Source: Elusimicrobiota bacterium
GTDB lineage: Bacteria; Elusimicrobiota; Elusimicrobia; FEN-1173
NCBI GenBank assembly: GCA_016788905.1
Contig: JAEURZ010000018.1
Span: 1 to 61,424, forward strand
DNA: 61,424 bases
Direction of reading: 5' to 3'
Shown one piece after another: positions 20,829 to 35,521 of this stretch (the stretch's first letter is position 1; each line of letters begins with the position of its first letter). The position numbers were made by a program, and so were the translations under genes. The notes under the pieces were generated by a model, which ran no database searches, was not told the DNA's origin, and saw only the letters and a list, made by a program, of their open reading frames with translations.

Positions 20829-20929
20829 TCGCGAATGGAATTAATGGAGTCAAATTGGATCTGGACTCCATTGGTGGGCAACGGATTGGTGTATATGAAA
20901 TTCAGTGCATGGAGCGTTTTCGGGGTCAT
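20825..20929 (-). CDS. Possible 34-aa small protein between DUF1016 gene and dehydrogenase
   Basis: A 34-codon frame exactly tiles the gap. Its ATG overlaps the DUF1016 stop as ATGA, and its TGA overlaps the dehydrogenase ATG as ATGA. The peptide starts MTPKTLHALNFIYTN and resembles nothing I know. The double ATGA fit matches the coupling style of the locus. A frame of this length is not rare by chance, so it may be either a real coupled small protein or the 3' remnant of a gene cut off when the DUF1016 gene arrived. Confidence 0.3.
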   Translation of the reverse strand: MTPKTLHALNFIYTNPLPTNGVQIQFDSINSIRE

Positions 20930-22044
20930 TGGGTTTGTTTTGGTTTGGCCCAGCGCTTCAACAGAGACAGGCGGGTGCGATTGAGTTCCTCAACAATGGC
21001 TTTTTCTTCGGGCAAAACAGTCCTGTATTCAGCGGCCAGAACCTTGTTGGGCAAGTCCTCCAGAGAATATTTTGCCACGGATTCATCTTTCTGCGCGCAA
21101 AGGATTAGTCCAACGGGCGGATTTTCGTCTGGGTTGGTCCAATGAGCTTTGGCATAATTTAAATACATATGCATTTGGCCAGCATCGGAGTGAGTGAACT
21201 TCCCGAGCTTGAGGTCGATCAGCACCAAACATCGCAATCGTCTGTGATAGAAAAGCAAATCGATTCGGTACCACTCATCTCCAATTCGCATCCTCTTTTG
21301 CCTTGCCGCAAAAGTGAAATTTGCTCCCAACTCCAACAGAAAAGACTCCAAATGGAGAATCAATGCCTCCTCCAGTTGATTTTCGGAATACTCATCTTTC
21401 AGACCAAGGAATTCCAAAACATAAGGATCTTTGATTTCCTGTTCGGGGGTAAGAGGATTTTCTTCTCTCTGATTCTTTATTAGCATAGCCGCTTTGTTGC
21501 GCGACAAAGCCGTGCGCTCGTAAAATTGGCTGTCGATTTGTCGTTCCATTTGCCGAATGGACCACCCTCCGCGCAAGCACTCCGCTTCGTAGAATCGGCG
21601 CGCATTCTCATTTTTTACGTTCAGAAGTCGAACGTAGTGGGACCAAGAAAGCCTCAATTGTTCTGCGAGAGTCCTGAGCCCACGGGTCTCTGATTTCGCA
21701 GACAGTGTCTGCGAAATTGGCCATTGGAGATAGAAAGCCCGCATTTGTTCAAGATTTCTCTCTGAAAATCCACGCCCAAGGGGGGCCAAATCCCGAGACA
21801 ACTTTTCCACCAGGCCCTTCCCATAGGCTGCCCTTCTTTTTCCGTGTTGATCAAACTCCACAATCCGTCGGCCAATTTCCCAACAAGTGGCCACCAACAT
21901 TCCATTGACAGCACGCACCGCAGTCCGTCGGGCATTCTCCAGAAGGCCCCGAATACTTCCGACCAGGCGGCCATAACGGGTCGCTCCCCGCCTAACAGAC
22001 CGACGGCTAAAGGTCAAATGTTTCTCAGGTTTTTTTACTGCCAT
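20926..22044 (-). CDS. DUF1016/YhcG-type PDDEXK nuclease, copy 1
   Basis: The 372-residue protein has the DUF1016 architecture. An N-terminal helical domain (about 20-120, with CWEIGRRIVEF and ERNLEQMRAFY) is followed by a variable linker, a middle domain (LSWSHYVRLL) and a C-terminal PDDEXK nuclease core. The core shows RIDLLFYHRRLRCLVLIDLKLG and AGQMHMYLNY. The catalytic ELK position reads DLK, which could weaken or change the metal site. YhcG-like proteins are linked to DNA restriction and mobile regions, but their role is not settled. Start: GGAGA before ATG. Two other copies lie at 32774 and 34343. Confidence 0.85.
   Translation of the reverse strand: MAVKKPEKHLTFSRRSVRRGATRYGRLVGSIRGLLENARRTAVRAVNGMLVATCWEIGRRIVEFDQHGKRRAAYGKGLVEKLSRDLAPLGRGFSERNLEQMRAFYLQWPISQTLSAKSETRGLRTLAEQLRLSWSHYVRLLNVKNENARRFYEAECLRGGWSIRQMERQIDSQFYERTALSRNKAAMLIKNQREENPLTPEQEIKDPYVLEFLGLKDEYSENQLEEALILHLESFLLELGANFTFAARQKRMRIGDEWYRIDLLFYHRRLRCLVLIDLKLGKFTHSDAGQMHMYLNYAKAHWTNPDENPPVGLILCAQKDESVAKYSLEDLPNKVLAAEYRTVLPEEKAIVEELNRTRLSLLKRWAKPKQTQ
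21693..21717. repeat. Perfect 25-bp palindrome in the DUF1016 copy 1 linker
   Basis: The arms ATTTCGCAGACA (21693-21704) and TGTCTGCGAAAT (21706-21717) are perfectly complementary around a single G. The palindrome is inside the coding sequence, in frame, and encodes ISQTLSAK in the linker after the first DUF1016 domain. Copies 2 and 3 of the family carry different palindromes at the same place. Confidence 0.8.
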
Positions 22045-22065
22045 GAATTCTCCATCTGAAATAAC

Positions 22066-22731
22066 TCAAGACTCAAAATATATGAAACCATAATCTCCGG
22101 TGTAACCACAAAGCTTATAAAACCAGGCCCATTCCTGAGGTGTGTAGAAACTTTCGCAGGTGAGTTGCCAATAGAGCATATTGGCTTTTTCTTCCTCGTT
22201 TCGGTAGGATTCAACACAAATGTATTTGTTCATTTTTCCCACACGTTCGATTTCTTTCACCGCGTCATGAAGCTCATAATTGTAAAGGTTGTGAAGAGTT
22301 GTGTTGGAATAAACGAAATCGAAAGACTTGTCAGGGAAGGGTAATTGGGTGGCGTTCCCTACCTGAAGGAACGGCTTCACTTCTTCCTTTGCATTATCGA
22401 TGGCGTAAGTTGAAATATCAATCCCGGAAATTTGCAAGCCCGGGACCGCCCGTTGGAATTCGTACAACATATACCCTTTGCCGCAACCCACATCCAATAT
22501 TCTGTCCCCCGATTTCAAGCCATAATGTTTGGCGATGGTCTGGGCCAGGGGGAACCAACGGCCATCATAACGGTACCCTCCAAACCCGAACTTTCGGTCC
22601 CCGTCCCAGTATTCCGAACCGTATTTTTTAGCGATTCGAGCGGCCTGTGCCTTGGGGAATTCCGTGACACGGCCCACGTAGTCTCGTTTGGTGGATTTAT
22701 TTAAAACCTGAATAAAATCAATTTGTTCCAT
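22066..22731 (-). CDS. SAM-dependent methyltransferase
   Basis: This class I methyltransferase of about 221 residues has the SAM motif RILDVGCGKGYMLYEF (about residue 75), the acidic ISGIDIS strand and LPFPDKSFDFVYSN. The N-terminal block KRDYVGRVTEFPKA and the YWDGDRKFGFGGYRYDGRW segment are typical of methyltransferases in nonulosonic-acid and LPS loci. The frame opens at 22788. The ATG at 22731 has GGAGACGGGG upstream, starts where family members start (MEQIDFIQVLN) and avoids overlapping the upstream gene. The acceptor sugar is unknown. Confidence 0.78.
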   Translation of the reverse strand: MEQIDFIQVLNKSTKRDYVGRVTEFPKAQAARIAKKYGSEYWDGDRKFGFGGYRYDGRWFPLAQTIAKHYGLKSGDRILDVGCGKGYMLYEFQRAVPGLQISGIDISTYAIDNAKEEVKPFLQVGNATQLPFPDKSFDFVYSNTTLHNLYNYELHDAVKEIERVGKMNKYICVESYRNEEEKANMLYWQLTCESFYTPQEWAWFYKLCGYTGDYGFIYFES

Positions 22732-22766
22732 CCCCGTCTCCAATAAACAGTATTTTATAGAATTAT

Positions 22767-23741
22767 CTACCATCGCCAGAACTTCCATCCATGAGATTCG
22801 ATGCGTTGCCCAATTCGAAAGGTCACCCTTTGAAAAACATGAAGAATCAGCGCCCTTAGAGAAAGGGTTTCAAGAATAGAGCGCTGCCTCCCTTTTTTCG
22901 AGCGGTCCAGTAGCGGGACATAACTTCGACTGGGTGGATTTGGAAAAAACTGAAGCCGATAAGCATAATTCCCATCGGAACCCATACACTGATAGGCATA
23001 ACGGAAATCCTCTTTGGATTGCTTCTGAAAAACGTAACAAATCCCAAGGCAAGCCCCATCTTTTGACCATTGGAGAATGTCCAAGAGTTCATTCGAAAGC
23101 GGGATGTAAAACTGATCCACTCCATAATTGCCTTTCAATGCACGTGGAAGGATCCGGAGCTCTTCTTTATCGATATATTTCCGATTTAGCGTGACAAGAA
23201 AGGAGGAAAAAAGAACGCGATAACCATTGGCGGCCGCCATGCTTTCAAAAAATGAAAGGTCAAAATTGTGAAAACCGTTTCCGCCATAGAGACACTGACT
23301 GATGTGAATGATCCCGCCTGGTTTGCATAAACGATGCACTGTCCGATATGTTTCACCGATGTTGAATACGTGCTCATTGGTCCCATGATCGGTGACCATG
23401 TCAAACTGCCCCAGAAGGGTAGAATCCGTGAAAGGGAGATTCAGATCATGTGGTATAGCCCCATAGTTATGATTGAGATCAATGCACCGGTATTCCTCAA
23501 CCCCGAGAAGTTGATAAAAAGGCTTGGCCGGACAGCGGGGATCTCCTGGCCAATAATTTAAGTTTGAAAATGGTTTATGATCGTATGAAGTTATACCCGC
23601 TGCGTGAAGATATCCTTCAAATTGGTGGGGTGTCAGGTGCAATTCTTGCGAACCCATTTCAATAATCGACTTGACGTTTGAGAACAGGTTTCTTTGCCAC
23701 AACTCAAGATTCAGTTTGACTGCCGCAGGACCAAGTCCCAT
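22767..23741 (-). CDS. SAM-dependent methyltransferase-like protein
   Basis: The 324-residue protein has weak but recognisable class I methyltransferase features in the middle. These are the EYRCIDLNHNYGAIPHDLN strand-loop, QFDMVTDHGTNEHV and the LCKPGGIIHIS post-core strand. The glycine-rich SAM loop is atypical. The C-terminal 80 residues are basic. It precedes another methyltransferase gene, with a 35-nt gap to the start chosen there, in the nucleotide-sugar region. I cannot name the substrate. Confidence 0.6.
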   Translation of the reverse strand: MGLGPAAVKLNLELWQRNLFSNVKSIIEMGSQELHLTPHQFEGYLHAAGITSYDHKPFSNLNYWPGDPRCPAKPFYQLLGVEEYRCIDLNHNYGAIPHDLNLPFTDSTLLGQFDMVTDHGTNEHVFNIGETYRTVHRLCKPGGIIHISQCLYGGNGFHNFDLSFFESMAAANGYRVLFSSFLVTLNRKYIDKEELRILPRALKGNYGVDQFYIPLSNELLDILQWSKDGACLGICYVFQKQSKEDFRYAYQCMGSDGNYAYRLQFFPNPPSRSYVPLLDRSKKGRQRSILETLSLRALILHVFQRVTFRIGQRIESHGWKFWRW

Positions 23742-23759
23742 ATTGCTTTCTCCTTTTGC

Positions 23760-24797
23760 TTATCCTAGCATGTGGTCTAAAAAAAAGCCCTTCTCGATGG
23801 ATGCCGCCAGGACTTCCCATTGGCGTTTTGATTTATCAATTTGAAGCATTTTTCGTTCCCCAACATCGACTCCTGCGAATATCCGACGTTCCCCTTCCAC
23901 CTTAAGGAATTCATTAAGTAGTATGAGACACCATTTCAAAGCCAACATCGGATAAATCAACCGCAAACGGCGCAGGCCGTCCGAGGTTCCAGTCAACCGC
24001 TGGGACATTTCTCGGACAAACCTCGGGTGGAGATCCAGAGGCATCGGCACGGCCGGGTGCAGGCAAGAGTTGGCAATCATTTGCGCCGGATCATCCCACC
24101 CCGCGTATTCAAAATCCAGGAAAACCAAATGTCCCTCTCGCCTCAGTGTGTTCTGAAACCCGTGGTCGGCGGGGCTTAACGTTAGCTGAGCCGGATCTAA
24201 AACTTTGTCGATGGTGAATCCTGATTTCGCCTGATTCTTTAAAAAATTCTCTAAAGCTTCATACGCCCAAGAGAGCGGCCCGTTAATAAAATCGGCCGCT
24301 ACGGGGTCCATCCGTGGATCGATTTCCTGTTGCAAACGTCGAAAGCGGCGGGAGACATTCACCCAATATTCGGCTAACGAAGGAGCGTAATCCGATGCGG
24401 TCGGTAATCGTTGGGCTTCTGGTCGGTCTTTTCGATTATACAAATCTTCCAAAAATGTGATGAGCTGTTCCACTTCCGCCCATGAGATATCGGCGGGAGT
24501 CAACGGAATCCCATCGATATACTCATAGAGTCCCAGAGATTCCTCGCGAAACATCCCAAATGGCTGGGGGACACGATGCACCCCTGTTTCCCACAGAAAC
24601 GTTAACATCTTAAACTCGGTCCCCAGGCGATCTCGGGGATCGTCGGGGTGGCGAAAATAAATCTTTGCGACCCGGGCGCCTGCCGACAAATCCACCTTGG
24701 CCACCACGTTGTTGCCCACCCCGTTCAGGAGAGAAACCCCCTTAGGGCATTCGCCCGTAACGCGCTCCACAATGGAAGCCACGTCACCCGGCGTCAT
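23760..24797 (-). CDS. APH/choline-kinase-type phosphotransferase
   Basis: The 345-residue protein has an aminoglycoside-phosphotransferase-like kinase fold. It has LLNGVGNNVVAKVDL (nucleotide loop), YEYIDGIPLTP (hinge), a catalytic-loop equivalent LSPADHGFQNTLRR with D and N, and the metal-binding VFLDFEYAGWDDPA. In glycan clusters such kinases usually phosphorylate a sugar or small alcohol rather than a drug. The stop of the HAD gene overlaps its ATG (ATGA), so a kinase and a phosphatase-fold protein are co-translated. The substrate is unknown. Confidence 0.75.
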   Translation of the reverse strand: MTPGDVASIVERVTGECPKGVSLLNGVGNNVVAKVDLSAGARVAKIYFRHPDDPRDRLGTEFKMLTFLWETGVHRVPQPFGMFREESLGLYEYIDGIPLTPADISWAEVEQLITFLEDLYNRKDRPEAQRLPTASDYAPSLAEYWVNVSRRFRRLQQEIDPRMDPVAADFINGPLSWAYEALENFLKNQAKSGFTIDKVLDPAQLTLSPADHGFQNTLRREGHLVFLDFEYAGWDDPAQMIANSCLHPAVPMPLDLHPRFVREMSQRLTGTSDGLRRLRLIYPMLALKWCLILLNEFLKVEGERRIFAGVDVGERKMLQIDKSKRQWEVLAASIEKGFFLDHMLG

Positions 24798-25447
24798 GCC
24801 AGAAGATCCTCTTCAAACGCACGCGCGACATGGTCCCAGGTTGTAAAGGAACGGTATCCCTCCAATTTCTCTGGTGGTAGATCTGGAGCAAAAAGCCACT
24901 TCTTCACTCCCATTGGAAAATGGGGTTCAGCGAAGACCTCTTTCAAATCGTCGATAAAATGGGTACACCCAAGAGTGCGAATGCGGTTCAGCTTGTCCTT
25001 CCGTGTGGGCTCAAAAAAGACCTCATCACGGGATAAGGCAACCCCATCGTAGAATCCATAACTTTCCAACCAACGCTGTCCCGCTTCATGTAGATCGTGT
25101 GCTGGCCCACCCACGGCGTGGGGTGTCTTATGGCTAATGACATACACCGGGATTCCTTTTTGACGACACAGAACGAGAAACTCTCTCGCGCCTGGGAATG
25201 GGAGCGCTTCGGAGAGAAGAGGGCCATAAACTATTCCTTGCAATTCTGTCCATTCCGTATCGCGCCCTTGATCCCTCAAAATTTGGCGAACCGCGTCTTT
25301 CCCCCCGGAAAGTTCGGGCGGAATCATCCTACGCTCACAGGCGACCCGAAAAAAAAGGGGGGCGCAACAGACGAGCGTGTTGTCGAAATCAATTCCTATG
25401 CGCACAGAGCGCCCGTAACGATCCGAGGTATTCGACGGGACCGACAT
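24794..25447 (-). CDS. HAD-superfamily hydrolase-like protein
   Basis: The protein of about 217 residues starts its fold with IGIDFDNTLV, the HAD nucleophile loop (DxD). It has a VYVISHKT motif II region and a THFIDDLKEVF acidic motif IV. The frame extends upstream through a palindromic element to 25522. The ATG at 25447 has AAGGAG upstream and directly precedes the fold, so the upstream part is not coding. In context it could be the phosphatase of a sugar-phosphate pathway with the SIS isomerase and HldE-like fusion nearby. It is not a typical GmhB, so this is inference. Confidence 0.7.
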   Translation of the reverse strand: MSVPSNTSDRYGRSVRIGIDFDNTLVCCAPLFFRVACERRMIPPELSGGKDAVRQILRDQGRDTEWTELQGIVYGPLLSEALPFPGAREFLVLCRQKGIPVYVISHKTPHAVGGPAHDLHEAGQRWLESYGFYDGVALSRDEVFFEPTRKDKLNRIRTLGCTHFIDDLKEVFAEPHFPMGVKKWLFAPDLPPEKLEGYRSFTTWDHVARAFEEDLLA

Positions 25448-25492
25448 ACAGATCTCCTTCCTACCGTAATTCCACCCCCCCTCTCCCTTTCT

Positions 25493-25516
25493 CCCTCTCC
25501 CGCAAGCGGGAGAGGG
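25493..25516. repeat. REP-like GC-rich palindrome
   Basis: CCCTCTCCCGC-AA-GCGGGAGAGGG forms an 11-bp-arm hairpin in the gap between the transketolase stop and the HAD start. It resembles the common intergenic palindromes of many bacterial genomes. No run of T follows on the minus strand, so it is not a standard terminator. Related palindromes lie at 37491-37519 and 38395-38421. Confidence 0.65.
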
Positions 25517-25531
25517 AAACACTTTAAAATT

Positions 25532-26455
25532 CTAAATGGCCTTGAGAAACGACAACACCTTAGCGGCCATCGCTTCGGGAGAGAGGCCAACCCGTTCTCG
25601 GGCGGATTCATTGTCAACTGCTCCCCTAAAAAATTCGTCGGGGGTTCCGATTCGGCACAAGCGGGCTGGAGAAGGGTTGTCTGCTAGCCACTCGGCCACG
25701 CTTCCGCCAAGCCCACCTTGAACACTGTGATCTTCCACCGTGACCATTAGAGAAAATGCAGAAAACGCTTCCCGAAGGAAACCCTGATCCAAGGGCTTTA
25801 CCGTATGAAAACTGACCACTTGAGCGGAGACACCTTTTCGCTCCAAAATCTCTGCCGATTTCATTGTCAAAGAAAGAATGTGCCCATTGCTGAGGAGACA
25901 AACATGGGTTCCCGGTTTAACGACAATGGCTTTCCCAATCGTAAAAGGGGGAGGCTGGGAGTGGATTAGGGGTTCCCCCTTCTTCCCCAGTCGAAGAAAG
26001 ACGGGCCCCTCTTGCTGAAGAGAGGCGCGCAGAGACATACGAACTTCCATGGGGTCCCCCGGGCACACCACCGCCATGTTTGGCAGAACGCGAAGGGCGG
26101 CCACATCCTCCAAAGAATGATGAGTGGCTCCCAAAGAGGCGTAACTGAGTCCAGCCCCCACACCGACGAGAACGACCGGAAGGCAGTGATAGCATAAGTC
26201 GATCCGGATTTGCTCGTAGCACCGGGTCGTGAGAAAGGAGTTAATGGTATAGACGACCGGGCGAAACCCGGTCATGGCCATGCCCGCCGCCAGCCCGATC
26301 ATATTGGCCTCGGCCGCTCCGGCATTCACAAACCGTCCAGGCGCGGCCGCTTTAAAATCATCGAACAATCGGTTTCCAATATCGCCAGACACCAGAACAA
26401 CCCGAGGATCTTCTTTTGCGAGAGCGGTAATTTCAGAAGCGAATGCGTTTCTCAT
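25532..26455 (-). CDS. Transketolase, C-terminal subunit
   Basis: The 307-residue protein corresponds to the pyrimidine-binding and C-terminal domains of transketolase, encoded as a separate subunit. It shows GDIGNRL, the thiamine-activating glutamate region NAGAAEANMIGLAAGMA, GATHHSLEDVAALR and GVSAQVVSFHTVKPLD. Split transketolases in surface-glycan loci are thought to make specialised ketose phosphates. It is ATGA-coupled to the N-terminal subunit gene just upstream, so both halves are made together. Confidence 0.87.
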   Translation of the reverse strand: MRNAFASEITALAKEDPRVVLVSGDIGNRLFDDFKAAAPGRFVNAGAAEANMIGLAAGMAMTGFRPVVYTINSFLTTRCYEQIRIDLCYHCLPVVLVGVGAGLSYASLGATHHSLEDVAALRVLPNMAVVCPGDPMEVRMSLRASLQQEGPVFLRLGKKGEPLIHSQPPPFTIGKAIVVKPGTHVCLLSNGHILSLTMKSAEILERKGVSAQVVSFHTVKPLDQGFLREAFSAFSLMVTVEDHSVQGGLGGSVAEWLADNPSPARLCRIGTPDEFFRGAVDNESARERVGLSPEAMAAKVLSFLKAI

Positions 26456-27282
26456 AATTCCAGTTCCACTTTTGACTTCCTGACCTCTTCTTCCGTCGGA
26501 ATGCGGTAGTGCCAGTTGTTGTCGTCCTCCATAAATGAAACGCCCTTCCCTTTCACGGTGTGGGCAACTACCGCTAGGGGTTTGCCCGCAGGGTCCGGAA
26601 CACGGCTCATGGCGTCAATTAACGCCGCCACATTGTGCCCATCCACGTCAACAGCGTTCCAACCGAACGCTTGCCATTTTTCCTTTAACGGATTCATGGT
26701 CATTATTTCATGGCTACGCCCCGTGGCTTGCCACTTATTGTAATCAACGATGACAGCGAGGTTTCCTAGCTTTAGAGCGGGAGCCAAGAGAGCCGCTTCC
26801 CAGACGGACCCCTCGTTGGCTTCGCCGTCACTGATCACGACAAAAACACGGGAGCGTCTGCCTTGCAGTCGAGCCGCCCAAGACATCCCGAGCCCAACCG
26901 ATAATCCATGCCCTAACGAACCGGTCGCCACCTCTAGGCCGGGGACACAAGAGGGACTGGGGTGTTCGGGGAGGGACCCGCCAGGGACAGCAAATGTGTC
27001 CAGCAAATTGGTCGGAAAAAATCCTCGGTAGGCCAGAGTGGCATAAAAAGCGCTGATGGCGTGGCCCTTGCTAAAGATGAATCGGTCTCGATTGGGAGCC
27101 GAGGGATCCTTTGGGTCCAGGGAAAGAACTCCCCAGTAGGCCGCCACCAAGATATCCACGACCGAAAGGGCTCCACCCAGGTGTGCCGTTTTTCCTCGGT
27201 GAGACATTTCAATGACACGACCCCGGATGGTCCGGGCCATATTCTTTAATTCGTCTGCGGGGGGGCTTTCTCGAGAGACCAT
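26452..27282 (-). CDS. Transketolase, N-terminal (TPP-binding) subunit
   Basis: The 276-residue protein is the thiamine-diphosphate-binding half. It shows SHRGKTAHLGGALSVVDIL, FIFSKGHAISAFYATLA, LGHGLSVGLGMSWAA and the TPP motif ISDGEANEGSVWEA with IVDYNKWQATG. With the following gene it forms a two-subunit transketolase. It begins at an ATG overlapping the upstream epimerase stop by one base (TGATG). The pair is probably dedicated to glycan precursor synthesis. Confidence 0.87.
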   Translation of the reverse strand: MVSRESPPADELKNMARTIRGRVIEMSHRGKTAHLGGALSVVDILVAAYWGVLSLDPKDPSAPNRDRFIFSKGHAISAFYATLAYRGFFPTNLLDTFAVPGGSLPEHPSPSCVPGLEVATGSLGHGLSVGLGMSWAARLQGRRSRVFVVISDGEANEGSVWEAALLAPALKLGNLAVIVDYNKWQATGRSHEIMTMNPLKEKWQAFGWNAVDVDGHNVAALIDAMSRVPDPAGKPLAVVAHTVKGKGVSFMEDDNNWHYRIPTEEEVRKSKVELEL

Positions 27283-28283
27283 CAGCCGCCCAGGTTCGCC
27301 AGTTGCATGGTTTTGATGTTGTAGTAGAGCGGGTTCGTGAGAGGTTCTTTAAGGTGGCCTGCCAGAAAAGACGTGTGGATACTTTCAATGGCCTCTTCCA
27401 GAGTGTGGTGGGCGCGGAACCCGAGGACCCGCGCGATCTTGTCGGAGTTTACGTGGTAAGAGCGCAGATCGTTGGTGGGTTCCACCTTGATGGTAATAGT
27501 GGGGTCCTTGATTTGGCTTTTCACCATCGCGGCGATTCGGGAGAGGGACATGTTCTCATATCCGGCATTGAAAACATCCCCATGGATTTTGTCTTTCGGA
27601 GCTTCCAAGAGGAGCTTGTAGACATCGACCATGTCCAAAACATTAATGTTGGGACGCAATTGGCTGCCGCCGAAGACAGTGATCTGTTTTTTGATTAAAG
27701 CGTGGATGGTGAGGATGTTGACGGAAAGGTCCAGACGCATGCGGGGAGCGTAACCGCAGACGGTGGCGGGTCGGACAATCACATACTCCGCGCCACCCAA
27801 ACCGTCGGCGCGCAAGGCCTCTTCGCACATCAACTTGTAATTGGAATAGTCGGTCAGGGGCGTACAGGGTGTCTCTTCTCGAACATCGGACTCTTCTCGG
27901 AGACCGTAAACGCTGGAGCTTGAAGCGTAGATCAACCGCTGAACTCCCGCCCTTCGTACCGCCTTCATCAAACCGAAAAAAGCGTCGTAGTTGATGGACT
28001 TTCCTAGGGCGGGATCCAACTCAAAGCTAGGGTCGTTGGAGACGCACGCCAAGTGAATAACCGCGTCGCATCCCTGGGCGGCTTTGTCCAGAATAGCCTG
28101 GTCCCGAAGGTCTCCTTTGACCTGCTCAAGATTGGGATCTTTCTGAACATCCCGTAAGGGGTCTCCATAGAGATACAGGTCCAACACACGAACCGCGTGG
28201 CCGGCTTTTAGCAAGGCCGGTACAAGAGCCGAACCAACGTAGCCGGCTCCGCCGGTCACCAAGATTTTTTTAAATTTGACCAC
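27282..28283 (-). CDS. NAD-dependent epimerase/dehydratase (extended SDR)
   Basis: The 333-residue extended SDR has TGGAGYVGSALV, ASSSSVYG and the catalytic YSNYK, followed by RPATVCGYAPRMRLDLSVN. It resembles nucleotide-sugar epimerases/reductases found with heptose or branched-sugar genes. The start is a GTG with GAGGAG 7-8 nt upstream. It lies between the HldE-like gene and the transketolase genes, so it probably acts on the activated sugar made by the HldE-like enzyme. The exact reaction is not visible. Confidence 0.8.
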   Translation of the reverse strand: MVKFKKILVTGGAGYVGSALVPALLKAGHAVRVLDLYLYGDPLRDVQKDPNLEQVKGDLRDQAILDKAAQGCDAVIHLACVSNDPSFELDPALGKSINYDAFFGLMKAVRRAGVQRLIYASSSSVYGLREESDVREETPCTPLTDYSNYKLMCEEALRADGLGGAEYVIVRPATVCGYAPRMRLDLSVNILTIHALIKKQITVFGGSQLRPNINVLDMVDVYKLLLEAPKDKIHGDVFNAGYENMSLSRIAAMVKSQIKDPTITIKVEPTNDLRSYHVNSDKIARVLGFRAHHTLEEAIESIHTSFLAGHLKEPLTNPLYYNIKTMQLANLGG

Positions 28284-28293
28284 TATTGACTCC

Positions 28294-29817
28294 TCATTTC
28301 AGCATGGCCTCTGCGGCTTTTAAAAGGACCGTCTTATCAATGGAGGCTTTGTTGCCTATGATCGTGACCGCTTGTGCGCCTGCCAGATTGCCCAGAAACG
28401 CGGACACGTCTGGAGGAACTCCGGCCACCGCGCAAAGGGATGTGAGCGCGAGCACCGCGTCTCCCGCACCGATACGATCCAGCACCTTGACGGCGAAGGC
28501 CGGAGATTCATGGAAATCACCTCTCTGGTCATGGACCAGAATGCCCGCTCTGCCGCGGGTGACCGTCATCCGCTGGCAGGAGAGGCGACGTTCCAGATCG
28601 GTGACCATGGCCTTCACGGGACCCCTTCGACTTCGGTATTCCAACCTTAGCTCTGATTCTTGGATACAAACATGGTCGGCTTTGGGATAACGGGAAATCG
28701 CGTGGAACCCGATGTTGGCCGCATTGATCTGTGTATTGACCGTGAGAAAGGGCGCTTTTTGACAGGCCAGGGCCACCGCTTTTGGCGTCATGAGGCCATG
28801 CCCGTAATCGGCCACGAGGACAGCGTCGACATTGGAAAAAGAAGCTGCCATCGCTTCGCACAGGGCGTCTTCTGCCGGGCTCGTCAGTGCCTCGTCATCC
28901 ATATCATAGACTTCAAACATTTTTGACAACAAATAGGATTCCACGTATCGACGCTTAACGATAGTCGGGGCACCGGGTTTCTTTATGGCGGTTAACTGGA
29001 CTCGAGGATTCAGACTGCGGCGGACAAATTCTTCCTGTGTGTCTCGTTCCCCTAAGTAGGTGATGACCTGAACCTCGGCGCAGAACTGTGCGAGGTGGTT
29101 TGCGATGGCTAAGGCCCCCCCGGCGTATAATTCTTGGGAACGACGGAGGACGGCCAATGTGGGTTCCTTAGACGATTTCCCCATCGCGTCACAATAAACA
29201 TATTCGTCCAAAATGGTTTCTCCCACCACCGCCACGCGCAACTTGTTTAGGCTTTCAATGTGCCGAGTGATGTCTTCCTTGGTGTGCTTTTTTCGAAAAT
29301 CTCCTAAAAAGGCTTTGACCTCGGGGGGAAGAAGGTCCAAATGAAGGTTGGCCAAATTGGAAGAACTGAACGTCACATCATCCGTGAAACGGATCTCGCC
29401 ACCCACGGCTCGAACGGCTTCTTCTTCGCGAAGAATCCCGCCCGTCACGTCGTCCGCGGCCTTTCGATAATCCGGGCCTTTGGCGTAAACGTCGGGTTTG
29501 AAGAGACCAATCGATTCCACCGCAGAGGGCCAACGATTGATCGCGACGCCATCGACGACATCCAGGGCGGCCAAGACTTCCGCTCGAAGGTGTTGGGGAA
29601 ACGCGGGACGGTGAGGCCCTTTGTTAACCAGATGATCGGGGGTGAGGGTCACAATTAAATAATCTCCGAAACTTTTCGCCTCATTTAAATGACGAATATG
29701 GCCCACATGTAAAAGGTCAAAAACCCCGTGGCACTGGACAACACGTTTGCCCTGACGTTTCCAGTCTGCCACGCGAAGGGCCAATGAATCCAATTCCTGA
29801 ATTTTCATTGAATCCAT
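28294..29817 (-). CDS. HldE-like fusion in reversed order: nucleotidyltransferase then PfkB kinase
   Basis: The protein of about 507 residues has an N-terminal cytidylyl/adenylyltransferase-like domain (GVFDLLHVGHIRHLNEAK with the HxGH motif, about 35-50). A C-terminal PfkB/ribokinase-type domain ends in RIGAGDAVLA, with the catalytic aspartate near residue 455. HldE/RfaE has the same two activities with the kinase first, so this is the reverse fusion. It may both phosphorylate and nucleotidylate a sugar phosphate made by the SIS and transketolase genes. The ATG at 29817 follows the upstream stop as TAATG with AAGGGA upstream; the longer frame to 29847 is less likely. Confidence 0.82.
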   Translation of the reverse strand: MDSMKIQELDSLALRVADWKRQGKRVVQCHGVFDLLHVGHIRHLNEAKSFGDYLIVTLTPDHLVNKGPHRPAFPQHLRAEVLAALDVVDGVAINRWPSAVESIGLFKPDVYAKGPDYRKAADDVTGGILREEEAVRAVGGEIRFTDDVTFSSSNLANLHLDLLPPEVKAFLGDFRKKHTKEDITRHIESLNKLRVAVVGETILDEYVYCDAMGKSSKEPTLAVLRRSQELYAGGALAIANHLAQFCAEVQVITYLGERDTQEEFVRRSLNPRVQLTAIKKPGAPTIVKRRYVESYLLSKMFEVYDMDDEALTSPAEDALCEAMAASFSNVDAVLVADYGHGLMTPKAVALACQKAPFLTVNTQINAANIGFHAISRYPKADHVCIQESELRLEYRSRRGPVKAMVTDLERRLSCQRMTVTRGRAGILVHDQRGDFHESPAFAVKVLDRIGAGDAVLALTSLCAVAGVPPDVSAFLGNLAGAQAVTIIGNKASIDKTVLLKAAEAMLK

Positions 29818-30812
29818 TATTTTCCCTTCCCCAAATGGGCAAACCAATCCGCTGTCGCTTCAGCAATCGACGCGGGGGTCCACACCGGCGCGTTCCGCCA
29901 ATCTTCAAGATGTGCCATGACCCGGGCGACCCCTTCGTCAAAAGAAATGCGCGGCGCCCAACCTAAAACAGATTTAATTTTTTGAATGTCACCGTGGGTC
30001 ACGTCGGGCTCTCCGGGGCGTTTTGGAATTTCGACTCTCGGGCCCCCCACCAAACGGGCCAGCTCGTTCACCGCGATCGGGTTCCCCCTGGCTACGTTAA
30101 ACACACCGCCTGACTGTGTTGTTTCCCCCGCGGCCAAAAAGGCGTCCACAACATCTGTGACATAAATAAAATCCCGCCGTTGGGTTCCATCTCCAACAAT
30201 GGTCAAGGGTTTCCCGGCGAGTTTTTGCGCCAAAAAAACGCCAAAAACGGCGCCGTAGGCCCCGGTCGTTCGAGAACGGGGGCCGTAAACATTAAAGAGT
30301 CGAAGCGAAGTGGTTTGCAAACCATAAACACGCCCCCAGTGGTGGACCGCCTCTTCCCCCATCCACTTCGAGAGGGCATAGGGGTATTGGGGGGAAATAG
30401 GAGCCGTCTCCGGTGTTGGGAAGACGGATGGAAGACCATAACAGGAAGAAGAAGCGGCATAGACGATACGAAAGACTCCCGCGTGACGAGCCGCTTCCAG
30501 AACACGTAACGTTCCCGTGATGTTGGTCCGGCAATAGTTCAAGGGGCGTTGAATGGAAGGAACGATGTCTGCCAATCCCGCCAAATGGAAAACGACGTCG
30601 GCCTTGGTAAACCCTTCAGCCAAATCGTCCGACGCCACGTCTGCATGGATGACTTTGAGGAGGGGATGCCCAGAGAACGAGCGAATGTTTTCTAGTCGTC
30701 CAGTGGAAGCGTTGTCGACAATGGTCGTTGCAACCCCTCGACCCAACAGGGCTTCCGAGAGGTGGCTTCCGATAAATCCTAAACCGCCTGTGACGACCGC
30801 TTTTTTAATCAT
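29817..30812 (-). CDS. NAD-dependent epimerase/dehydratase (GalE-like)
   Basis: The 331-residue extended SDR has TGGLGFIGSHL at the N-terminus, AASSSCYG, the catalytic YALSK, and NVYGPRSRTTGAYGAV typical of UDP-hexose 4-epimerase relatives. Substrate cannot be assigned from sequence alone. It lies between the SIS gene and the HldE-like gene with minimal spacing. Two different SDRs therefore flank the HldE-like enzyme. Confidence 0.82.
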   Translation of the reverse strand: MIKKAVVTGGLGFIGSHLSEALLGRGVATTIVDNASTGRLENIRSFSGHPLLKVIHADVASDDLAEGFTKADVVFHLAGLADIVPSIQRPLNYCRTNITGTLRVLEAARHAGVFRIVYAASSSCYGLPSVFPTPETAPISPQYPYALSKWMGEEAVHHWGRVYGLQTTSLRLFNVYGPRSRTTGAYGAVFGVFLAQKLAGKPLTIVGDGTQRRDFIYVTDVVDAFLAAGETTQSGGVFNVARGNPIAVNELARLVGGPRVEIPKRPGEPDVTHGDIQKIKSVLGWAPRISFDEGVARVMAHLEDWRNAPVWTPASIAEATADWFAHLGKGK

Positions 30813-30820
30813 GTCGTTCC

Positions 30821-31453
30821 TTAATATCCCGATTTTTTTACGTGCGGATTGATGTAAATGATTTCCCGCAACATGGCATGGATCAAGATGAGATGACTGA
30901 CTTCCACCAACCCATACGCCCGCACGGGAACAAAAAAGTTGACATCCCCCGTTCGCCGAAGGGGATTGTCCGCTGTAAACCCTGAAAAAGTAATCACGCG
31001 GTTTCCCACAGAACGGGCCGCTTTAACAGCATTTAGAATGTTCGGTGAACGGCCGGAACTACTGATGGCCATTAGCACATCGCCCGGCTCGGCAAATCGA
31101 CGCACCGGCTCTGAAAAAACATTCTCATACCCGCAATCGTTTCCAATACAGGTCAAGAGACTTGCATCGTTAAACGTGATCGCTTTGATCCCCCCGTTTT
31201 TCCAAAAATCGACGGCCTGGTGGCTGGCAATCGCCGAGCTTCCGCCATTGCCCACAAAAATTAGTTTCTTTTTCCGGCGCGCTGCGTCGACCATCAAGGC
31301 CATCGCCATTGCAAACCCGTCCATAAGAGGGAGCACTGTGTTTCGTTTGATCGTCACCAGAAATTCCTTTTCAAGTTCCTCCAAGTTAACCAGGAAACTC
31401 ATGGCGTGGCGGCCGGTGGGTTTTTTCCAAGGGGGCGATTTTATTTTTTTCAT
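30821..31453 (-). CDS. SIS-domain sugar isomerase (GmhA-like)
   Basis: The 210-residue protein has the SIS fold with the phosphosugar-binding loop VGNGGSSAIASHQAVDF (about 67-83) and the second loop MAISSSGRSPNI. It resembles GmhA, sedoheptulose-7-phosphate isomerase, and similar enzymes in glycan loci. The neighbouring transketolase, HldE-like and epimerase genes suggest a heptose-like or other NDP-sugar route starting here. The ATG overlaps the lhgO stop as ATGA. Confidence 0.8.
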   Translation of the reverse strand: MKKIKSPPWKKPTGRHAMSFLVNLEELEKEFLVTIKRNTVLPLMDGFAMAMALMVDAARRKKKLIFVGNGGSSAIASHQAVDFWKNGGIKAITFNDASLLTCIGNDCGYENVFSEPVRRFAEPGDVLMAISSSGRSPNILNAVKAARSVGNRVITFSGFTADNPLRRTGDVNFFVPVRAYGLVEVSHLILIHAMLREIIYINPHVKKSGY

Positions 31454-32676
31454 GCGACCTTGACCTCCTTTTTCACTTCACTCCCCCGTTTCTCAAGCCC
31501 GTCAACAATTCGGCCAGCAAAAGCGAGAGAACAGGTGAACGCCGGTGAAATAGCGTTCAATACATGAAGAGAGTTGTCGGTCTGCTCGATATGGAAATCC
31601 ATTTCCAATCCACCGGAACGGCGGACCAATTGGGGGCGAATGCCGACATTATCGGAGGGGACGAGATCTTCCCCCGACAAGTTGGGGACCAGCCGTTGAA
31701 CGGCCTTCAGAAATATCGACTTGACGTAGTGACCCACTTCTCGATTAACCAATCGTCTAAAAGTGGCATCTTTTTGGAAGAACATTCCAGCGAGACGGCT
31801 TAAAATCCTGAGACTTTCGGCGGGGGCTATCCCTTGAAACAATCCATAATTTTCACGGCCCAGGGCGGGGATTGCTGTTGGCCCCACATAGACATCACCG
31901 CTTACGCCTCGTGTCAAGTGGATGCCCAAAAAGGGAAAGTTCAGGTCTGGGACGGGGTAAAGGCTTTCCCTGACCCAATGATCCCCTCCCTTTCTCAACT
32001 TCCAATATAGGCCTTTGAACGGGACCAACACATGGTCTTTGGCCAACCCAAAGAACCGCGCAACTTGATCCGCGTGGGCCCCCGCACAGTTGATCATCTT
32101 TTCATAATGGAAACGCCGTCCAGCGCGGGTGATCAACACAGAGTCCTCGGCCGCAATTACCTCCTCGCCGAAGAATAGACGAGTCCCGGAGGATTCTACC
32201 TTGTGGGCCAGGACGCGCATGACACCGGGGGCGTCCACCACGGCGGTGTCCAGACAGTGAATACCCTCCCCCGCAGCGGCGTGAGGTTCAATCTTCTTGA
32301 GAGCTTCAGCGGTTAACCTCAAAACCCGAATCCCATTGGCCCTGGCGTTATGCTCAAGGCGCTCTAACCCTGGAAGATCTTCCTGCCCTGAAGCGAGGAT
32401 GACCTTACCCCCCACGCGGTGGGTCACACCATTTTCTCTGGCAAAGGCCAACATCTGACGTGCGCCTTCGGCACAAAATTTCGCTTTGAGGGTTCCAGGG
32501 GAGTAGTAGATGCCCGAGTGCAAAACCCCGCTGTTGCGGCCGCTGGCATGACAACCAACCCGGGCCTCTTTCTCAAGCACTATGATGCGGGCATTGGGGT
32601 GGCGCTGGCGAATTTCTCGCGCCACGGCGAGGCCAATGATTCCGGCTCCGACAATGAGAAAATCTGAATATTCCAT
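31450..32676 (-). CDS. lhgO: L-2-hydroxyglutarate oxidase-like FAD enzyme
   Basis: This FAD-dependent oxidase of the DAO superfamily has about 408 residues. It has the N-terminal dinucleotide site IVGAGIIGLAVA, then KEARVGCHASGRNSGVLHSGIYY, typical of LhgO, and a C-terminal GIRPQLV block. The start ATG at 32676 has AAAGG upstream and overlaps a stop codon (TAATG). The longer frame to 32808 is part of an upstream remnant and is rejected. A 23-codon relic of its 5' end lies at 33892-33963, showing a duplication around the DUF1016 copy 2 gene. Its role in a glycan locus is unclear. Confidence 0.82.
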   Translation of the reverse strand: MEYSDFLIVGAGIIGLAVAREIRQRHPNARIIVLEKEARVGCHASGRNSGVLHSGIYYSPGTLKAKFCAEGARQMLAFARENGVTHRVGGKVILASGQEDLPGLERLEHNARANGIRVLRLTAEALKKIEPHAAAGEGIHCLDTAVVDAPGVMRVLAHKVESSGTRLFFGEEVIAAEDSVLITRAGRRFHYEKMINCAGAHADQVARFFGLAKDHVLVPFKGLYWKLRKGGDHWVRESLYPVPDLNFPFLGIHLTRGVSGDVYVGPTAIPALGRENYGLFQGIAPAESLRILSRLAGMFFQKDATFRRLVNREVGHYVKSIFLKAVQRLVPNLSGEDLVPSDNVGIRPQLVRRSGGLEMDFHIEQTDNSLHVLNAISPAFTCSLAFAGRIVDGLEKRGSEVKKEVKVA

Positions 32677-32757
32677 TAAATAACCTTTTTCGCTAACGCG
32701 AGAATGTTTGATACGGTGGTCAAGACGCCGGGAAAGGCCCTCGTTTTCTTTGCTGAA
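32676..32757 (-). pseudogene. 3' remnant of the 127-aa gene (duplicated junction)
   Basis: Read in one frame, this stretch ends AKKTR...VSNILALAKKVI followed by TAA overlapping the lhgO ATG. The same C-terminal residues (KKTR...VSNILALAKKVI) end the intact gene at 33963-34346. The two copies differ in about a quarter of the bases by eye. The fragment has no start and is the relic of a duplicated gene junction. Confidence 0.7.
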
Positions 32758-32773
32758 AGATTCTTTGGCGATC

Positions 32774-33895
32774 TCATCTGACGTTTCTCTCTTCCAGTAA
32801 GCGAACATCCTGGCGAAGAAAATTCTTTAATTCCTGAAGTGTTGGCAATTGCAACATGTAACGAGAGACAAAAAGTTTATTGTCCATACCGACGGTGGCA
32901 TACTTGACTTCAGCCTCCTCATCATGGGTGCATAAGATGATTCCAATAGGAGGGTTATCTCCTGGGTTCATTTCGTTCTCTCGCATGTAATTGAGATAGA
33001 AATTCATCTGTCCCGCATCCGTGTGGGAGAACTCCCTGATCTTTAATTCAATGAGGATATGACATTTTAGAATCCTGTGATAGAAGAGGAGGTCAATAAA
33101 ATAGTGTTGATTGTTTATGGTCAGACGCTTCTGACGGGCTTCAAAACAAAAACCCTTTCCAAGTTCTAACAAAAAATCATGGAGGTGCCGAATGAGAGCG
33201 GATTCCAGGTCGCTCTCAGAATAAGCGGCCTTATCGGGAATGTTCAAAAATTCAAAAACATAGGGGTTCTTGATGGCCTCGTCCGGGGTCAGAATTTCCC
33301 CCCGAATTCCTTTGATCAGTTTTGTCTTATCCCTCGATTTGGCAAGTCTTTCATAGAGCAAACTCCCCATCTGTCTCTTGAGTTCCCGGATGGACCAGTG
33401 AGCCTTGATGGCCTGGGTTTCGTAAAAAGACCGTTTGACCAAGTCCTTAACCTTTAAAAGCTCCACAAAGTGAGAAAAGGAGAGGTTCTCAAGCAATTGA
33501 ATCGGAGGAACACTCAATGGATCAGGCACTGTCTGATCAATTGCCCGCGTTTTTGATTTTGCCGGAGCGACATGAAGAGAACGATCCAAAGAGATATTGA
33601 AATGATCCGTCAGTGTCTGACGAATCTGGGGATAGGCCTTGTAGAATTCCCTGAAGAGAATGAGAGCGGTCTTTGAAACGCCCGGAACCGCACGGGCCCT
33701 CAGCTTCGCCGTCAATGTTTCCAAGAGACGATCGCCGTATTCAGCGCGATCTTCACCCTTTTGTTCAAACTCGACAATGTAAAAACCAAACATCCAATTG
33801 CGGATGGTGAGCGCGGTATTAACGCTCTGCGCCGCACGAGCCCTCAACGTTCGGTGCGCTGATTCGATGGCCAAAACCAGTTGCGTAAGTTTCAT
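32774..33895 (-). CDS. DUF1016/YhcG-type PDDEXK nuclease, copy 2
   Basis: The 373-residue protein has the same architecture as the other two copies. It has an N-terminal DUF1016 domain (MFGFYIVEFEQKGEDRAEYG), a long variable linker (about 95-160), LSFSHFVELLKV, and a PDDEXK core with FIDLLFYHRILKCHILIELK and AGQMNFYLNY. Here the ELK triad residue is intact. It is flanked by diverged direct copies of the junction between the 127-aa gene and lhgO, which suggests it arrived as an insertion. Its ATG overlaps the stop of the lhgO relic (ATGA). The linker holds two palindromes. Confidence 0.85.
   Translation of the reverse strand: MKLTQLVLAIESAHRTLRARAAQSVNTALTIRNWMFGFYIVEFEQKGEDRAEYGDRLLETLTAKLRARAVPGVSKTALILFREFYKAYPQIRQTLTDHFNISLDRSLHVAPAKSKTRAIDQTVPDPLSVPPIQLLENLSFSHFVELLKVKDLVKRSFYETQAIKAHWSIRELKRQMGSLLYERLAKSRDKTKLIKGIRGEILTPDEAIKNPYVFEFLNIPDKAAYSESDLESALIRHLHDFLLELGKGFCFEARQKRLTINNQHYFIDLLFYHRILKCHILIELKIREFSHTDAGQMNFYLNYMRENEMNPGDNPPIGIILCTHDEEAEVKYATVGMDNKLFVSRYMLQLPTLQELKNFLRQDVRLLEERNVR
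33520..33538. repeat. Near-perfect palindrome in DUF1016 copy 2 linker (first)
   Basis: GATCAGGCA-C-TGTCTGATC gives 9-bp arms with a single G/T mismatch, within the coding sequence of the linker. Confidence 0.65.
33604..33626. repeat. Near-perfect palindrome in DUF1016 copy 2 linker (second)
   Basis: The core CGTCAG-TGT-CTGACG (33608-33622) extends to 10-bp arms with one mismatch. It encodes the IRQTLTD part of the linker, matching the position of the palindrome in copy 1. Confidence 0.7.
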
Positions 33896-33963
33896 GGGTT
33901 CGATCTACCTGTGACAAGACCAACGATCCCGTCGCCAACAATGAGAAAATCTGCGGATTCCAT
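33892..33963 (-). pseudogene. 5' relic of lhgO
   Basis: After the TAA of the 127-aa gene (overlap TAATG) a 23-codon frame reads MESADFLIVGDGIVGLVTG. This is clearly related to the start of lhgO at 32676 (MEYSDFLIVGAGIIGLAVA). The frame ends at a TGA overlapping the DUF1016 copy 2 start (ATGA). It is the left part of a duplicated junction, cut by the DUF1016 gene. Confidence 0.75.
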
Positions 33964-34346
33964 TAAATGACCTTTTTCGCTAACGCAAGGATGTTTGATA
34001 CGGCACCCAGGGCACGGGTAAAGATCCTCGTTTTCTTTTCGCTTTTGTCCGCTTCGTGGATGAGTTTAGAAAGTTCAGATTGAGCGGTTCCCGCGCGGGC
34101 GATGAGTAATTTTGTTTTTTTATTCCACTCGGGGGTAACGGTTTGGCGAATTCGGGAGATTTCTAGACGGAGGACTTGGCCTTGGGCCGTCAACTCTTCG
34201 GCTAAAACATCGTTCTGCGCTTCTTTGGACTTTCGTGCGAATTGAAGGATGGAAATCCGAGACTCGGACAAGGTTTCAAGCAGAGACAGAGAAAAGGCGG
34301 GTTCCACTCCATTTGAAACCCGAGCCATGGGACGCTTGCGAGTCAT
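33963..34346 (-). CDS. Small unknown protein coupled to DUF1016 copy 3
   Basis: I do not recognise this 127-residue protein. It is charged and probably mostly helical, with heptad-like spacing from about residue 20 to 95 (SESRISILQFARKSKEAQ, LSKLIHEADKSEKK). It ends in an amphipathic or hydrophobic helix, LGAVSNILALAKKVI. Its ATG overlaps the stop of DUF1016 copy 3 (ATGA), so the two are co-translated and may work together. A truncated copy of its 3' end at 32676-32757 shows it was once next to lhgO in both copies of a duplicated segment. Confidence 0.6.
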   Translation of the reverse strand: MTRKRPMARVSNGVEPAFSLSLLETLSESRISILQFARKSKEAQNDVLAEELTAQGQVLRLEISRIRQTVTPEWNKKTKLLIARAGTAQSELSKLIHEADKSEKKTRIFTRALGAVSNILALAKKVI

Positions 34347-35521
34347 TGGGATTTCTCTCGTTCGCCGTGGAGATGGGTCTCCCTCACAACCGATAACAAT
34401 TGGCGTTCTGTTGGTAGCTTCCCCCTGAATTCTTTGGGAAGCTTGGATGTGAGGTGGTAGGAGGAAACCCCAATGGGATTGGTTTTTGATTTTAAGGAAA
34501 ACTCCACGTCCAGGTCATCCTTCTTGGCGCAAAGGATGATCCCGATGGAGGGATTATCGTGGGGAGATTTCTCTTTTGTGTTGAGGACGTTTAAATAAAA
34601 ATCCATCTTCCCAGCGTATTCCGGAAGAAAGGATCCTGCCTTCAGTTCAATGGCCACCAAAGACTTAAGAAACCGGTGATAGAACAAGAGATCAATAAAA
34701 TATTCCTTATGACCAAGAACAAGGCGGTGCTGCCTTCCAATGAAACAAAAGCCATACCCGAGCTCTAGGATGAATTTTTGTACGCGTTCAAGCAGGCGAT
34801 CTTCGATCTGCCGCTCTTTTACCTGACGGTCGATCCCTAGAAACTCCAGGTTGTAGGAACTCTTCAACGCTTCGTTTGCTTGCTCAGCGAGAAACTCTGG
34901 GAGAGCCACTTGGAAGTTATGGGTTTTCCCTTTCATCGAGGACCGTTCATAGGCCTCGGCCAGAATTTGATTCAAGAGGACATTCCGACTCCATCCAAAA
35001 CGCACGGAGGCGCGGATGTAATAAAGTCTCGCGAGAGGGGGTTTTATTTTTTCTAAAAGGAGTAAATGGTGGCCCCAGGGCAATTCTTCAACAAGCTGTT
35101 GAAGAAATGACGGGGCTTTCCTGGCGGGAACGGGAGCTGAAATCACGGATTTCTTTCCTAATTCTTCAACAGCCTGTTGAAGAAAATGATCATCTGTGTA
35201 TTCGACATAAAATCGCCGCATGGCCCACAGATTCGCCGCAGAGAGCCCTCGCAACCCCGGGAATCCCCTCTGAAGATCTTTTGAAAGAACTTCCACCACC
35301 GATTGCCCCCACCCACAAGCGGCTTGTTTTTCAACAATGCTTCGACCGATATCCCAGTAAAGACGGATGAGATGGCGATTGATGGACCGGGCGGCGCGAA
35401 CGCGCGAGAGAATAATCTTATTTTTTAGGTCAAGAAGGAAAGATTTATATTCCTTTGTGCTCAACAACTTTTTTTCTCCCCCACCGAATTCAAAAGCTCC
35501 GCCGCCGCGTTTGTCCGTCAT
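34343..35521 (-). CDS. DUF1016/YhcG-type PDDEXK nuclease, copy 3
   Basis: The 392-residue protein has an N-terminal DUF1016 domain (YWDIGRSIVEKQAACGWGQSVVE, LSAANLWAMRRFY), a linker, LPWGHHLLLLEKI, and a PDDEXK core (FIDLLFYHRFLKSLVAIELKAG and AGKMDFYLN). This is the classical YhcG pattern, with the ELK motif intact. The linker contains a duplicated FLQQ(A/L)VEEL peptide encoded by two perfect palindromes. The start overlaps the lipoprotein stop by ATGA, so it belongs to the operon that begins with the GbsR-type regulator. Confidence 0.87.
   Translation of the reverse strand: MTDKRGGGAFEFGGGEKKLLSTKEYKSFLLDLKNKIILSRVRAARSINRHLIRLYWDIGRSIVEKQAACGWGQSVVEVLSKDLQRGFPGLRGLSAANLWAMRRFYVEYTDDHFLQQAVEELGKKSVISAPVPARKAPSFLQQLVEELPWGHHLLLLEKIKPPLARLYYIRASVRFGWSRNVLLNQILAEAYERSSMKGKTHNFQVALPEFLAEQANEALKSSYNLEFLGIDRQVKERQIEDRLLERVQKFILELGYGFCFIGRQHRLVLGHKEYFIDLLFYHRFLKSLVAIELKAGSFLPEYAGKMDFYLNVLNTKEKSPHDNPSIGIILCAKKDDLDVEFSLKSKTNPIGVSSYHLTSKLPKEFRGKLPTERQLLSVVRETHLHGEREKSQ
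35084..35106. repeat. Perfect palindrome in DUF1016 copy 3 linker (first)
   Basis: TTCTTCAACA-AGC-TGTTGAAGAA has 10-bp perfect arms and lies in frame, encoding part of the FLQQLVEEL peptide. The same arms recur 78 bp away. Confidence 0.8.
35162..35184. repeat. Perfect palindrome in DUF1016 copy 3 linker (second)
   Basis: TTCTTCAACA-GCC-TGTTGAAGAA has the same 10-bp arms as the element at 35084, with a different 3-nt centre. The 78-nt (26-codon) offset keeps frame, and it encodes the FLQQAVEEL peptide. Confidence 0.8.

Follow-up and report, generated by a model that had tools for sequence, protein, structure and literature searches.

Three genes for nucleases of the DUF1016 (YhcG) family, located in a 61,424-nucleotide stretch of DNA from an Elusimicrobiota bacterium (assembly GCA_016788905.1, contig JAEURZ010000018.1; the window, hereafter), contain palindromes at the same place in their reading frames, and the palindromes differ from gene to gene. 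What could hold position and symmetry constant and let the sequence vary? The initial annotation, which raised the question, considered the coding role alone insufficient to explain the palindromes and named nuclease recognition, mRNA hairpins and inserted palindromic elements as possible reasons. The analysis presented here agrees with the first point and leads us to propose, with a probability that we set at roughly 85%, that the DNA site recognised by each DUF1016 protein lies within the very reading frame that encodes it. The proposal is based on the manner in which protein residues and palindrome bases vary together across the family.

All five palindromes reported in the window were found, in genes that lie on the minus strand. 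Copy 1 (20926-22044; 372 aa) contains a perfect palindrome of 25 bp, ATTTCGCAGACACTGTCTGCGAAAT, at 21693-21717. In copy 2 (32774-33895; 373 aa), the start-proximal palindrome (33604-33626) spans 23 bp with two of its 11 pairs mismatched, and the second (33520-33538) spans 19 bp with one mismatch in nine pairs. The start-proximal palindrome of copy 3 (34343-35521; 392 aa), TTCTTCAACAGGCTGTTGAAGAA, is perfect over its 23 bp (35162-35184); the second, 78 bp away, has the same arms and one mismatched pair adjoining the centre (35084-35106). At the start of copy 3 there is a 4-nt overlap with the upstream stop. As originally described, the palindromes lie in a linker and their arms are unlike among copies. 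The linker is bounded by the conserved FYxxYP segment on one side and by the W[SG]H motif on the other (F-S in copy 2) and belongs to the Pfam DUF1016_N domain. Synonymous-codon shuffles matched the linker score 0, 1 and 2 times out of 200 for copies 1, 2 and 3, respectively. All three genes score above cut-off for PF17761 and PF06250 and are full members of the family, with DUF1016_N and YhcG_C domains and an intact nuclease motif; the genome of the window has five YhcG_C matches in total.

To place these genes in the family, 80 homologues from GTDB species genomes and about 125 from the phylum of the window were collected (210 distinct genes, several phyla), and the palindrome score of the linker (FYxxYP to W[SG]H, about 110 nt) was compared with those of the flanking domains and of 200 synonymous-codon shuffles. 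The linkers carry an odd, in-frame palindrome, usually of 17-31 bp. For the linker the mean best score is 20.6, whereas the domains on either side have means of 10.5 and 11.6, and a score of at least 21 is reached by 113 of the 210 linkers versus two N-terminal and no C-terminal regions. The shuffling comparison, put forward in the initial annotation as the result that might overturn its claim, came out in favour of it: in 173 of the 210 linkers at most one of 200 shuffles attains the observed score. Among other long open reading frames (ORFs) of the same loci, 19 of 519 reach a score of 19, at least nine of the 19 being DUF1016 or ORF6N genes that had been missed by a crude filter; a comparably strong palindrome is present in about 2% of these other ORFs. 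The yhcG gene of E. coli K-12 has three coding palindromes, and plasmid-borne DUF1016 genes of Pseudomonas, Rhodococcus, Hymenobacter, Citrobacter and Curtobacterium had one in all five cases read. No DUF1016 relatives were found in the viral contigs scanned. The coding palindromes are a genuine, family-wide constraint at the DNA level.

Alignment of the palindromes on their centres yielded the consensus RATT-NNN-(5-base core)-R-S-Y-(core)-NNN-AATY. The centre coincides with the first base of a codon (phase 0) in 197 of 200 sites, and that of the first palindrome falls 17 codons past residue 100 (interquartile range 17-17; residue numbers are those of copy 1). Positions ±2 to ±12 are paired in 89-99% of the sites. 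Positions ±1 and ±13 are paired less often, yet nearly always have a purine on the left and a pyrimidine on the right, a symmetry that suggests a protein-DNA site, unlike a stem. When a gene has several palindromes, their cores are 84-96% identical, as against 40-62% between genes; bases ±7 to ±9 differ even among the palindromes of one gene and still pair.

The search for a recognition code looked for protein columns and palindrome bases that change on the same branches of the tree, the columns of the linker being excluded. The residue following a nearly invariant Trp (S135) came out at the top of 273 columns. Column 135 underwent 28 residue changes and bases -3/-2 underwent 33 dinucleotide changes, 16 of which were shared where 2.6 were expected (p = 1e-11). 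Ser at this position goes with AC, Thr with GC, CC or TC, Gly with CA and Arg with CG. Further associations link I163/R164 with bases -4 to -2, Q100 with -5/-6, R96 with -7 and E99 with -8/-9. Among single-palindrome genes, Arg96 is accompanied by G at -7 in 53 of 55, Trp99 by CT at -9/-8 in 30 of 31, Glu99 by C at -8 in 18 of 19 and Gln100 by CA at the -5/-6 positions in 37 of 38. In an AlphaFold2 model, residues 96, 99, 100 and 103 are spaced so as to form one face of helix 95-107, S135 and I163 are found at helix starts, and the palindrome-encoded peptide is predicted to be disordered. In copy 1, each of the five residues (R96, E99, Q100, S135 and I163) agrees with the code. Its predicted recognition helix is encoded at 21724-21762, the S135 codon within the W-X-H motif, putative reader of -3/-2, at 21640-21642, and the I163-R164 codons of the GWS-X-R motif at 21553-21558. 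The code makes a specific prediction, namely that replacing R96/E99 of copy 1 with Q96/W99 would shift binding from ATTTCGCAGAC to ATTCTCCAGAC. Arms would differ between copies because the recognition residues of each gene differ.

The predictive value of the code was assessed by learning its parameters solely from other clusters (60% identity) and ranking the gene's own palindrome among all. The own palindrome ranked at the 96th percentile (0.962), compared with the 64th (0.637 ± 0.051; maximum, 75th) for 60 random column sets matched for variability; the specificity columns had been picked on the test data set, so that the cross-validation covers the residue-to-base tables alone. Within single genes, 50 of the 51 palindromes distant from the W-X-H motif conform to the -3/-2 code. 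In the 48 genes with more than one palindrome, the helix is better matched by the start-proximal palindrome in 19 and by a downstream palindrome in six, with 23 ties (p = 0.015). The additional, poorer-fitting palindromes may be relics of former specificities.

A stand-alone palindrome was found upstream of an ORF6N gene, and this family (PF10543) was therefore examined. In a set of 81 genes, one or two of which may be mis-assigned, 79 have an odd coding palindrome, for example AACTTGAGGTCACAATTTGTGACCTCAAGTT, directly before the FTEQG segment, and in 71 at most one of 100 synonymous shuffles reaches the palindrome score. One residue of the recognition helix (X in TKRLN-X-AVRRN) predicts bases -5/-4: Gln goes with CA (31/34), Glu with CG (13/13), Arg with GC (11/12) and Lys with TC (5/6). 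Its changes coincide with dinucleotide changes in 21 of 26 cases (p = 1e-15; 0.002 for the next column). Gln-A and Arg-G pairings are the classical chemistry of recognition helices. The palindrome is also present in three of four plasmid ORF6N genes read from outside the phylum of the window; two viral loci turned up in the contigs scanned. Arrays of stand-alone palindromes of the ORF6N type, with differing inner bases, occur near ORF6N genes (L296:4259-4375, L304:9612-9840, L295:18467-18815 and L300:4751), in several cases upstream, which gives the impression that sites with different specificities build up at these places.

RhuM genes (PF13310) have odd coding palindromes immediately past the helix-turn-helix; in 20 of them Asn, Thr and Ala or Val go with A, G and C at -4, respectively, by statistics that ignore kinship. 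An even coding palindrome of up to 32 bp is present in all ten KilA-N genes (PF04383) read; at loci L385-L394 it has a GAATTC centre (TTTTAATTATGGCGAATTCGCCATAATTAAAA). These families resemble DUF1016 in the constant location of the coding palindrome, shortly past the DNA-binding helix, and ORF6N also in that a code, limited to one residue, would read it. They differ in protein family and in palindrome consensus, that of KilA-N being even and the others odd. A coding sequence that doubles as the putative site of its own protein is probably a feature of four families, two of them with a demonstrated code.

Searches of the host genome, carried out with patterns, found the palindromes of copies 1 and 3 in their own genes only. 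In 199 genomes the core pattern occurs mostly in DUF1016 ORFs, with few stand-alone copies, and the E. coli matches listed for one K-12 yhcG palindrome are all within yhcG/DUF1016 genes. Non-coding copies upstream of two genes (L124 and L109) preserve architecture and core. The idea that the own core is repeated in the promoter region as a general rule was rejected, exact upstream copies existing in just 2 of 174 genes. Other occurrences included a perfect DUF1016-type palindrome (ATTATTCAGACAGTGTCTGAATAAT) about 150 bp upstream of recA (L256:1272), three intergenic palindromes with two cores upstream of a Fic-family gene, in a 2.7-kb locus that has no DUF1016 gene (L258/L259:1228-1350), and, some 75 bp before a DUF1016 ORF, an inverted repeat of 51 bp that is nearly perfect (CCCACTTGATTCCAACTGTCCGG-TAATA-CCGGACAGTTGGAATCAAGTGGG; L015:2831-2881).

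In E. coli alleles, helix and first palindrome differ jointly: the K-12 type combines AKNLRQM with CGC arms, and L222 combines TRNLWQF with GTG arms. Among the E. coli alleles there is also an in-frame deletion that fuses the halves of two palindromes. The gene is often broken in this species (L218, L219, L220, L223 and L225). In L219 an IS1 element sits at the left arm of palindrome 3; in E. coli B the yhcG fragment ends just past palindrome 3, adjoining a small transposase gene; and L220 has an IS629-group II intron insertion. The palindromes may attract insertions.

The site that we postulate is a palindrome of odd length (about 25-27 bp), with its centre 17 codons past the recognition helix. 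The N-terminal domain would bind it, presumably as a dimer with one half-site per subunit. Residue 96 would read base -7, residue 99 bases -8/-9, residue 100 bases -5/-6, residue 163 base -4 and residue 135 bases -2/-3. A change in the recognition residues would be accompanied by one in the palindrome, which would explain why copies differ in their arms and yet share position and symmetry. Being adjacent in one ORF, helix and site would stay matched through horizontal transfer and recombination. DUF1016 genes are promiscuous, occur singly and often lie within operons: of 105 for which sufficient upstream DNA was available, 38 overlap an upstream ORF or begin no more than 40 nt from it, 15 of these 38 with the -4 overlap. 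The most likely use of the palindrome would be that of a portable intragenic operator, with the protein binding its own gene and throttling transcription in any host operon and under any promoter; private specificities would keep paralogues from silencing each other. Once bound, the nuclease may cut; alternatively, its targets may be foreign copies that share its specificity. Physical binding, the dimer and repression are all inferred. Autoregulation through such an operator, taken alone, seems to us to stand at slightly below even odds. More tentatively, mobile single genes (those of the nuclease, ORF6N, RhuM, KilA-N and perhaps more) might carry their own target for incompatibility, the resident silencing or cutting newcomers of the same specificity and so driving the diversification of helix and palindrome, in a manner comparable to phage immunity or plasmid incompatibility groups.

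Several observations weigh against self-recognition. The AlphaFold2 model is modest (predicted local distance difference test score 71.6; predicted template modelling score 0.42), and to the choice of columns mentioned above must be added that 23 of the 48 multi-palindrome genes show no preference and that the downstream palindrome does better in six. Every palindrome base pair also touches an encoded amino acid. An upstream copy of the own core, which a classical promoter operator needs, is rare, and autoregulation leaves the nuclease domain unexplained.

The likeliest of the alternatives is self-cleavage. The nuclease might bind and cut its own palindrome, the gene then being a target of its own specificity group and the site serving gene conversion, homing-like spread or the exclusion of incoming genes with the same specificity, with conflict between copies driving diversification. 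The PD-(D/E)XK motif is intact, D262 and K279 being invariant and D277 nearly so, and Foldseek matches, obtained for the nuclease half only, are to nucleases of the Cas4/AdnA/MGME1 type. Specificities are private and diverse, genomes hold many copies, and the joint exchange of helix and palindrome and the fusion of palindrome halves in E. coli fit the same idea. A permanent cut site would be costly to its own gene, and the palindrome is intact inside most genes, whereas the site of a homing endonuclease is disrupted in the occupied allele. Moreover, ORF6N proteins, in which the DUF1016-type nuclease domain was not found, have the same architecture. We consider self-cleavage unlikely. Of the earlier suggestion that the palindromes are self-targets or recognition sites of the nuclease, recognition is strongly supported by the residue-base co-variation; cleavage does not share this support.

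A hairpin in RNA or single-stranded DNA (translation control, mRNA target or cruciform), in which pairing itself is selected, would have a stem of 11-12 pairs and possibly a 3-nt loop. This reading was at first attractive for the retained pairing at ±7 to ±9, and was weakened by the finding that those bases follow residues 96 and 99. A structured RNA tolerates G-U pairs in its stem; here mismatches show no G-U excess, with 13 GT/TG versus 22 AC/CA in DUF1016 and five of G-U type versus 15 of A-C type in ORF6N. The purine/pyrimidine-only symmetry at ±1 and ±13 and the recurrence of the pattern in ORF6N, another DNA-binding family, whose helix code is canonical, also disfavour mRNA hairpins, and we regard a role for pairing as very improbable. 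Slightly more improbable still is a coupling at the protein level, in which the palindrome-encoded peptide packs on the recognition helix and amino-acid covariation mimics a DNA code. Since all palindrome base pairs touch coding positions, statistics alone cannot separate the two readings. Packing of the peptide leaves palindromy, which withstands synonymous shuffling, unexplained; distal palindromes keep the -3/-2 code, upstream non-coding copies share the architecture, the peptide is predicted disordered, and the residue-base pairs match known chemistry (Arg-G, Gln-A). Finally, selfish palindromic elements inserted in frame in the manner of Rickettsia palindromic elements, or palindromes upheld only by template-switch mutation, would agree with the stand-alone copies near some genes and with the variable length and palindrome number of the linkers, and are likewise very improbable, as tested palindromes have no copies elsewhere in their own genome, codon phase and 17-codon distance are fixed, and neither process predicts a recognition code.

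Self-recognition thus remains the preferred reading, and the co-variation points indirectly to what defines an operator, a protein recognising a site, here within its own gene. Palindromes that bind proteins within coding sequences are known from lacO2 in lacZ, the galE operator and parS inside spo0J/parB, and parS can be located within the gene for the protein that binds it. Each of these is an isolated case whose site is conserved, whereas in DUF1016 and ORF6N the site is a feature of the whole family and co-varies with the recognition residues of each gene. REP/RAYT and Rickettsia palindromic elements resemble the DUF1016 palindromes in that they are associated with a gene family or occur within coding frames; they are dispersed in many copies, whereas the DUF1016 site lacks the many genomic copies outside one gene family and is found almost exclusively in the gene or its vicinity. 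Full-text searches of open-access literature on DUF1016, YhcG, ORF6N, PDC-S02 and intragenic or self-encoded operators returned nothing on these palindromes, and for YhcG/DUF1016 they yielded no function, DNA target, internal palindrome or recognition code. In PADLOC the family has only the candidate label PDC-S02; a sequence search of the PDB and a search of NCBIfam gave no match.

These results predict a DNA target for a common, uncharacterised nuclease family and for ORF6N, along with a code by which recognition can be read. A coding sequence that is the binding site of the protein it encodes is a design without description in the literature searched. If binding is confirmed, each gene announces its own specificity, and thousands of protein-DNA pairs would become available for the study of recognition and for orthogonal regulators and nucleases. 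The function of YhcG, a long-standing question, is now directly approachable in E. coli K-12.

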